From contig JACPSH010000038.1 in NCBI GenBank assembly GCA_016193395.1, positions 1 to 45,544 on the forward strand: a stretch of DNA of 45,544 bases, given 5' to 3'. The notes under the pieces were generated by a model. It was given only the letters and a program-made list of their open reading frames with translations. It was not told the origin of the DNA and did no database searches. The DNA is from Gammaproteobacteria bacterium. GTDB taxonomy: Bacteria > Pseudomonadota > Gammaproteobacteria > Eutrophobiales > Eutrophobiaceae. This document shows positions 34,982 through 36,555 of the stretch, piece after piece. The number at the start of each line of letters is the position of its first letter. Positions within the stretch are counted from its first letter, which is position 1. Made by a program: the position numbers and the translations under genes.

Positions 34982-35482
34982 ATGGCGGAATCCATTCCAG
35001 ACGGCGCAGGCGGCGCACCGGAGCAGGCCACGCAGGGCCAGTTCGGAATTCAGAAGATCTACGTCAAGGATCTCTCGTTCGAAACGCCGAATTCGCCGGA
35101 TACCTTCCAGAAGGAATGGAATCCGTCGGTGAACATGGACGTGGCGAACACCGCCAGGCCCCTTAGCGACAAGCTGTTTGAAGTGGTTTTGTCGGTGACG
35201 GTGACCGTCCGATTCGCAGAGACGACCGTCTACCTGACCGAGGTCCAGCAAGCCGGGATCTTCCACATTGAAGGGTTCCCCAAAGCCGCCGTGAACCGCA
35301 TTCTCGCGACCCTCTGTCCGAACATCCTCTTCCCATTTGCCCGCGAGGTCGTGGCGGATCTCGCGATGCGCGGCGGGTTCCCGCAACTGCTGCTCGCGCC
35401 GATGAATTTCGACGCGCTCTACGCGCAGCACCTGCGCGAGGAAGCGGCCAGGGCGCCAGCCGACGCGGCACTCAAGCACTGA
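34982..35482 (+). CDS. secB: Protein-export chaperone SecB
   Basis: Cytoplasmic tetrameric chaperone that holds precursors unfolded and delivers them to SecA. The 166-aa protein has the family sequence FGIQKIYVKDLSFETPNSPD (about 21-40), EVVLSVTVTVRF (about 67-78), the conserved QAGIFHIEGF, and CPNILFPFAREVVADLAMRG followed by GGFPQLLLAPMNFDALY. Its TGA is 3 nt before a MITE-like element that separates it from gpsA. Confidence 0.95.
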   Translation: MAESIPDGAGGAPEQATQGQFGIQKIYVKDLSFETPNSPDTFQKEWNPSVNMDVANTARPLSDKLFEVVLSVTVTVRFAETTVYLTEVQQAGIFHIEGFPKAAVNRILATLCPNILFPFAREVVADLAMRGGFPQLLLAPMNFDALYAQHLREEAARAPADAALKH

Positions 35483-35485
35483 GCC

Positions 35486-35566
35486 AGGGGTCAGGTCTTG
35501 CATTCACGCATCGGTCGAATCGCCGGTCACGGGCTGAGTGATGCATGAATGCAAGACCTGACCCCT
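35486..35566. mobile_element. MITE-like element with 21-bp perfect inverted repeats
   Basis: AGGGGTCAGGTCTTGCATTC... (35486-35506) is perfectly inverted at 35546-35566. Pairing continues through GCATC/GATGC after one mismatch, giving arms of 27 bp. The interior is 27 nt. I recall GGGGTCAGGTCTTGCATTC-type arms as dispersed elements in many proteobacterial genomes. The right arm contains the gpsA start codon and its first codons. No target duplication is visible. Confidence 0.82.
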
Positions 35567-36555
35567 TGCTGATCCTCGGCGCCGGGTCCTGGGGAACGGC
35601 GCTGGCGCTGGTCCTGGCCCGCAAGGGCGTGGTGACTCGATTGTGGGATTGTGATCGCGCCCACGTCCACCGGCTCGCCGCCGAACGGTGCAATCAGCGT
35701 TACCTGCCAGGCATTCCTTTGCCAGGAGAGATCGTCCCGGTGCCCGACCTCGGCTCGGCGCTTGCGGACGTGCGCGACATCGTGGTGGCGATTCCCTGCG
35801 AGGGTCTTCGCTGCTCGATGCAGCAACTCGGACTGCTGCGCCGGGGCAACATGCGCATGTGCATCGCGTCCAAGGGGCTGGAACCGGGCACGCTCGCGCT
35901 CAACCACGAAGTGATCGCGGACTGCCTGGGCCCGGTGCCGGTGGCGGTTCTCTCCGGACCGTCATTCGCCGCCGAGGTCGCGGCCGGCCAGCCCACCGCC
36001 GTTACCCTGGCGTCCGCATCCGCGGAGATCGTTGAAGTGTTCGCCGGGTATTTCCACGACAACCTGTTCCGCATCTACACGTCCAGCGACATCATCGGTG
36101 TGCAGGTTGGCGGCGCGGTCAAGAACGTGATTGCGATCGCGGCCGGGATCGCCGATGGCCTGGGTTTCGGTGCCAATACCCGCGCGGCGCTCATTACGCG
36201 CGGCCTGGCCGAGATCACCCGTCTCGGGCTCGCCGTGGGCGGCAGGCGCGAGACCTTCACCGGTCTGGCCGGGCTGGGCGATCTGGTGCTCACGTGCACG
36301 GACGACCAGTCGCGCAATCGCCGACTGGGCCTGGCCCTGGCACGCGGCCGCACCCTGGAAGAAACACAGGCCGCGATCGGCCAGGTCATCGAGGGCGTTC
36401 GCACGGCCCAGGCCGTGCGCCTGCTGGCCGGACGTCATGGGATCGAAATGCCGATCACCGAGCAGGTCGTCAACGTCATCGAGGGAACAGCGACGCCCGC
36501 GGCGGCCGTGAAGGCCCTGCTGGCGCGCGAACCCAGATCGGAGTTGGGCGCATAA
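35545..36555 (+). CDS. gpsA: Glycerol-3-phosphate dehydrogenase [NAD(P)+]
   Basis: Makes sn-glycerol 3-phosphate for phospholipid synthesis. The 336-aa protein has the nucleotide-binding motif LILGAGSWGTALA (about 9-21), SGPSFAAEVAAGQPTAVTLA (about 132-151), the catalytic lysine in GGAVKNVIAIAAG (about 190), and GLAGLGDLVLTCTDDQSRNR (about 240-259). The first eight residues (MNARPDPL) are encoded by the right arm of the MITE-like element, including the start codon. Family members normally start only a few residues before the GAGSWG loop, so the core is intact. No Shine-Dalgarno is evident. Confidence 0.94.
   Translation: MNARPDPLLILGAGSWGTALALVLARKGVVTRLWDCDRAHVHRLAAERCNQRYLPGIPLPGEIVPVPDLGSALADVRDIVVAIPCEGLRCSMQQLGLLRRGNMRMCIASKGLEPGTLALNHEVIADCLGPVPVAVLSGPSFAAEVAAGQPTAVTLASASAEIVEVFAGYFHDNLFRIYTSSDIIGVQVGGAVKNVIAIAAGIADGLGFGANTRAALITRGLAEITRLGLAVGGRRETFTGLAGLGDLVLTCTDDQSRNRRLGLALARGRTLEETQAAIGQVIEGVRTAQAVRLLAGRHGIEMPITEQVVNVIEGTATPAAAVKALLAREPRSELGA

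Follow-up and report, generated by a model that had tools for sequence, protein, structure and literature searches.

The window, by which is meant the whole 45,544-nucleotide stretch of DNA analysed, comes from an uncultured gammaproteobacterium and has a palindromic repeat between secB and gpsA (Table 1). Judged by its two Pfam domains and a solved homologue (3k96), the product of gpsA is a good GpsA. The GGGG with which the element begins is at 35487 (35486 if an outer A-T pair is counted) and so is 3–4 nts past the secB stop, in agreement with the 3 nts given by an initial reading of the letters alone (the sequence-only reading). Such a site just past an upstream stop codon is typical of REP-like repeats (PMC3733652). 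Scanning of the junction for a promoter or a terminator revealed neither; the stem is without a U-tract. Decoding from the ATG at 35545 would yield MNARPDP from within the element (35545–35565), followed by host-encoded LLILGAGSWG. The right arm had been credited with encoding MNARPDPL; the ATG and MNARPDP are indeed inside it, but the L which follows, specified by TTG 35566, falls at the boundary of element and host. As the TGA at 35539 closes the gpsA frame, GpsA initiation further upstream is impossible, and the ATG at 35545 and the TTG at 35566 are what remain.

Table 1. Features at the secB-gpsA junction, and Y1-type transposase genes associated with matching arms in other genomes
Feature	Position	Strand	Basis
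secB, upstream gene of the pair	34982..35482	+	Pfam SecB 1.7e-55; ORF and sequence
secB stop codon, TGA	35480-35482	+
gpsA, 336 aa, NAD(P)-dependent glycerol-3-phosphate dehydrogenase	35545..36555	+	Pfam NAD_Gly3P_dh_N 4.8e-44, NAD_Gly3P_dh_C 2.5e-56; solved homologue 3k96
Most probable gpsA start ATG, 11 codons 5′ of GxGxxG	35545..35547	+	sequence, relatives, fold
TTG, sole alternative in-frame start before GxGxxG; first host codon past the element	35566..35568	+
In-frame TGA stop, two codons 5′ of the ATG	35539..35541	+	sequence
secB frame past its own stop, 21 open codons across the element, to TGA 35546-35548	35483..35548	+
79-bp palindromic TIR doublet, GGGGTCAGGTCTTG...CAAGACCTGACCCC	35487..35565	.	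inverted repeat, dispersed copies, fold
Inverted repeat including the outer A-T pair	35486-35566
Left arm of stem	35486..35513	+	fold
Right arm of stem, with gpsA ATG and codons for MNARPDP	35539..35566	+	fold, sequence
Y1-type transposase between inverted arms, Pfam-confirmed	L182 532-1377
Y1-type transposase between inverted arms, Pfam-confirmed	L193 1299-2156
Putative Y1-type transposase adjoining two arms, recognised from its MSNHYHLL motif only	L197 1349-2371

The arms of the palindrome are GGGGTCAGGTCTTGCATTCACGCATC and GATGCATGAATGCAAGACCTGACCCC, giving a doublet of the form GGGG…CCCC. In the predicted RNA fold, 35486–35506 pairs with 35546–35566 (21 bp) and, further in, 35508–35513 pairs with 35539–35544 (6 bp), for a total of 27 bp. 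The single mismatch in the stem is C35507 opposite A35545, the latter being the A of the gpsA ATG, while the T and G of that codon are paired. The minimum free energy is −58.2 kcal/mol compared to −25.6 ± 3.1 for 200 shuffled sequences (z −10.5), so the stem is not due to chance. The hairpin is also predicted to form when a 501-nt context is folded, and there is one dominant fold. The inverted repeat, the position of the ATG within it and the reading frame are all as the sequence-only reading described them.

Both ends of the doublet are GGGGTCAG, which fits the terminal motif GGGG[AT][CG]A[CG]. This GGGGWSAS motif was described for the terminal inverted repeats (TIRs) of Y1 transposases (TIRYT/TIRtrons), repeats that are found in dimers and clusters too (Di Nocera et al. 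2013, PMC3733652); the transposases involved are mostly of TnpAREP subclass 2.1 (PMC6006769). Copies of the present element are likewise dispersed as singles, dimers and clusters. In its own genome the complete doublet is accompanied by a small number of arms that are single or degraded, and G019, a relative within the taxonomic family, has about 20 doublets (29 element matches by score). Allowing ≤2 mismatches, the arm pattern occurs at 44 sites in G019, mostly as inverted pairs, and at 8 in the genome of the window, with the reversed control pattern giving 0 sites. The G019 doublets share the arm, while their spacers vary. Within the class, the arm is present in 16 of 203 sampled genomes. 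Autonomous copies in other gammaproteobacterial genomes (L182 and L193) have a Y1 (HuH) transposase between GGGGTCAGGTCTTGCAATCAAGCAT inverted repeats (PF01797 matches of 3.6e-12 and 4.9e-11, respectively).

No cognate transposase was found in the genome of the window, in an assembly that is 96.65% complete. The Y1 transposases of this genome and of G019 were considered as cognates and rejected, as there are no GGGGTCAGG arms nearby. The sole Y1_Tnp protein in the genome of the window (L051; G000:C22:55953-56282) is amid GGGGACAG repeats and not GGGGTCAGG. The GGGGACAGATTTATTTT repeats surrounding it constitute a second GGGGWSAS-type family, and a pair of repeats of that type directly adjoins a GGGGTCAGG arm at G000:C4:134292 (L012).

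The ends of the element are GGGGTC/GACCCC and the GTAG tag of classical REPs and REPINs is absent from them, nor is there at the window junction the direct target duplication of a classical DDE-transposon MITE. No target-site duplication was seen across the copies; instead the flanking bases tend to be mutually complementary, at 19 of 20 doublets for the first pair (10.9 expected) and 13 of 20 for the second (5.2 expected), counted on rows that include L004, L088, L092 and the window (35486/35566), some of which overlap and represent a single site. Small palindromes or inverted repeats seem to be preferred as insertion sites. A literature search with the arm sequence gave no match. On sequence criteria the element fits a mobile-type, non-autonomous repeat, TIR/REP-like with GGGGWSAS ends, of a type that Y1 (HuH) transposases mobilise. 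For its earlier designation as 'MITE-like', GGGGWSAS-type TIR doublet is the more precise term.

A gpsA gene was found in 49 of the 53 genomes of the family, and the element is absent from all 47 same-family gpsA junctions compared (29 + 18). It is also absent from 73 of 73 placeable named database loci (80 were taken from the genome collection and 7, without the motif searched for, could not be placed; some may be from the same genomes as the family junctions). At the junctions of L100 and L200, sequences resembling the arm (CATGACCCC, and a native Shine Dalgarno sequence, CAGGAGTCAGG, respectively) were dismissed as due to chance. In the assembly of the element-rich relative, G019, neither gpsA nor secB was detected. 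The closest relative, L020, whose GpsA is 69% identical, has the junction TGAGCC-GGGACGTGCGTGCCGAAGCCTCA-GTGCTGGTCCTTGGC, where the window has TGAGCC-A-(element)-TTGCTGATCCTCGGC. The end of secB, CACTGAGCC, is common to both, and in L020 gpsA resumes 23 nts on with GTGCTGGTCCTTGGCGCC. Those 23 nts comprise a GTG start and the codons for RAEAS; in the window one A and the element take their place, which means that the native start region has been lost rather than shifted. Inverted-repeat replacement as in IS1272 would be compatible with the missing 23 nts, at this one junction only. By comparison of sequences the insertion is lineage-specific: no relative has the arm as ancestral coding sequence, a finding that by the sequence-only reading's own terms would have refuted it, and the proposal of a mobile repeat at gpsA is upheld by the dispersed copies and the element-free junctions.

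Starts in relatives are mostly 7–13 codons 5′ of GxGxxG; the ATG, at 11, is within that range and the TTG, at 4, is outside it. In L020 and other relatives the counterpart of TTG 35566 is an internal Val codon of the first beta strand (GTG in L020), a strand that initiation at the TTG would shorten. Shine Dalgarno-like pairing is −2.8 kcal/mol for the ATG, close to the relatives' median of −3.0, and −0.7 for the TTG, which in effect has no Shine Dalgarno sequence. Start distance, the Val alignment and the pairing values together favour ATG 35545. Nevertheless, TTG is a legal in-frame start, and the element could be a 5′-untranslated insertion with synthesis beginning MLILGAGSWG, the open ATG frame being coincidental. 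Di Nocera et al. cautioned that many N-terminal REP-like repeats are perhaps extragenic, being really 5′ untranslated with translation possibly starting downstream, though they also noted that expression is reported for Rickettsia conorii proteins whose NH2 terminus carries RPE-1 (PMC3733652). The energetics of unfolding also point that way: if the sequence as far as 35492 is kept unpaired, it takes 1.2 kcal/mol to free the TTG and 16.8 to free the ATG, values that refer to each codon with its immediately adjoining nucleotides only. Against the positional and alignment evidence from relatives, we nevertheless regard initiation at the TTG as unlikely. Most likely, as far as sequence can indicate, the element supplies the gpsA initiation codon and the first seven residues, MNARPDP. 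The original contention that a repeat provides the start and N-terminus of GpsA is thus probably right, given the start distances in relatives and the open fused frame.

The capacity to provide a start is a general property of these repeats. In a census of exit frames at the 32 ends of 16 distinct doublets, the frame equivalent to that used at gpsA has an open outward start codon in 31, 14 of them ATG. A second exit frame has an open start codon at 29 ends, and the third is closed in all. With outward-open starts in two of three frames, the repeats are able to donate starts wherever an insertion is in phase. In G019, doublets are fused in phase 5′ of an aceA-like (isocitrate-lyase-like, L007) gene and of a uppP-like gene (L081). 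Neither is a clear further case of a donated start, as a plausible native start persists downstream of the arm in each.

Initiation at ATG 35545 would have to contend with considerable structure. Opening of the initiation region is predicted to cost 39.4 kcal/mol, compared to 13.1 ± 4.4 (maximum 27.1) in 96 relatives; in this model the window gpsA start is the most occluded of those examined, and the suggestion that the stem could hide the start codon is to that extent backed by prediction. When left-arm nucleotides to 35492 are held open, as they would be by a terminating ribosome, the cost is 29.7 kcal/mol, and with the arm held open to 35497 it is about 20 (these costs are equilibrium predictions, not rates). 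An ATG within a 27-bp stem preceded by a weak Shine Dalgarno-like stretch should be inefficient in initiation. The next TGA in the secB frame, 35546–35548, overlaps the gpsA ATG as ATGA, and since that frame is open as far as the overlap, a ribosome that failed to terminate at the secB stop would unwind the stem and finish on the gpsA start. For this to arise, one of three phases has to be hit and 21 codons have to be open, a rough estimate for its occurrence by chance being one in eight; it is not improbable, and the ATGA overlap is a lead only.

These features are what a regulatory switch would exploit, with the hairpin hiding the ATG until a signal turned gpsA translation on (candidate signals are the level of secB translation, cutting by RNase III, a factor that binds the RNA, or leaky readthrough of the secB UGA as far as the ATGA). 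The strong predicted occlusion, the open secB frame ending over the gpsA ATG and the location of the A of that ATG at the single mismatch of the stem are all consistent with it. However, the arrangement is conserved in no relative examined, there is the one dominant fold where a switch would have alternative structures conserved around the start codon, neither an alternative pairing nor a ligand nor any regulation was found, and the matching phase with its 21-codon open frame has the chance expectation just given. The switch suggested from the sequence alone is left without backing beyond prediction, a tolerated insertion fitting equally well, and we consider it quite improbable. A simpler expectation from the modelling is lowered or secB-coupled gpsA translation. 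It is likewise improbable that the doublet has been co-opted as a portable translation-start cassette, giving an ATG and N-terminus, with the hairpin and the open secB frame tying GpsA synthesis to translation of SecB.

The description of gpsA as essential is weakened because the genome of the window has another GpsA-like gene, divergent in sequence (L002; G000:C23:4698-5234, − strand; 34% identity over 180 residues; Pfam NAD_Gly3P_dh_C 1.7e-23), with which gpsA is perhaps not strictly essential. That paralogue, and the draft state of the assembly (60 contigs), could be taken to mean that the junction is chimeric or that gpsA is untranslated with the paralogue doing the work, but this is very improbable, as the assembly contains the complete doublet a single time and repeat collapse need not be invoked, the end of secB and the beginning of gpsA are each native, and gpsA has an intact 336-codon frame, strong matches to both Pfam domains and the identity to its closest relative given above.

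The account that we favour, and consider probable as a whole, is as follows. In this lineage a palindromic element, non-autonomous and of the GGGGWSAS TIR/REP-like type, would have inserted directly behind the secB stop, with loss or replacement of the native gpsA start and first codons (about 23 nts in L020). By chance the exit frame of the right arm was open and in phase, so that gpsA would now be translated from the ATG of the arm and the element-encoded MNARPDP would precede an intact Rossmann core. Initiation in vivo at this ATG would be inefficient and would be helped chiefly if the left arm were disturbed, be it by a ribosome terminating on secB or by RNase cleavage; translation would then be reduced or dependent on that of secB. 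The disturbance may come from secB ribosomes, from breathing or from RNase III.

Several known systems have features in common with this one. Like GGGGWSAS TIR elements, it has ends of the expected type, inverted dimers and clusters, and a Y1 transposase between matching repeats in autonomous copies (PMC3733652), but, unlike the usual ones, no cognate transposase was found in its own assembly. It resembles a REPIN or BIME (Bertels and Rainey 2011, PMC3116915) in being a short inverted doublet that forms a hairpin close after an upstream gene and whose kind is associated with Y1 transposases, and differs in its GGGG-type ends, lack of a GTAG-type REP tag and low copy number here. With Rickettsia palindromic elements (RPEs) and intragenic REPs it shares the presence of a palindromic repeat in frame with a housekeeping protein. 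RPEs are longer, whereas the gpsA repeat gives the start codon and only seven residues. ERIC and RU elements with ORFs are also small mobile repeats whose frames fuse to host genes, some N-terminally (Delihas 2007, PMC2759123), but they are a different family and donation of a start codon is not discussed in that work. That a palindromic repeat can add coding sequence to the end of a gene is thus already known from RPEs, intragenic REPs and ERIC/RU elements; the gpsA case is a further example, with a start that is unusually occluded on the modelled structure.

The junction is a clear-cut instance of a palindromic repeat that, once inserted, appears to have become the place where translation of a conserved metabolic gene is initiated, and relatives display the repeat-free arrangement. 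The placing of a very stable stem on the initiation codon of a presumably needed gene makes the tolerance of translation for structure testable.
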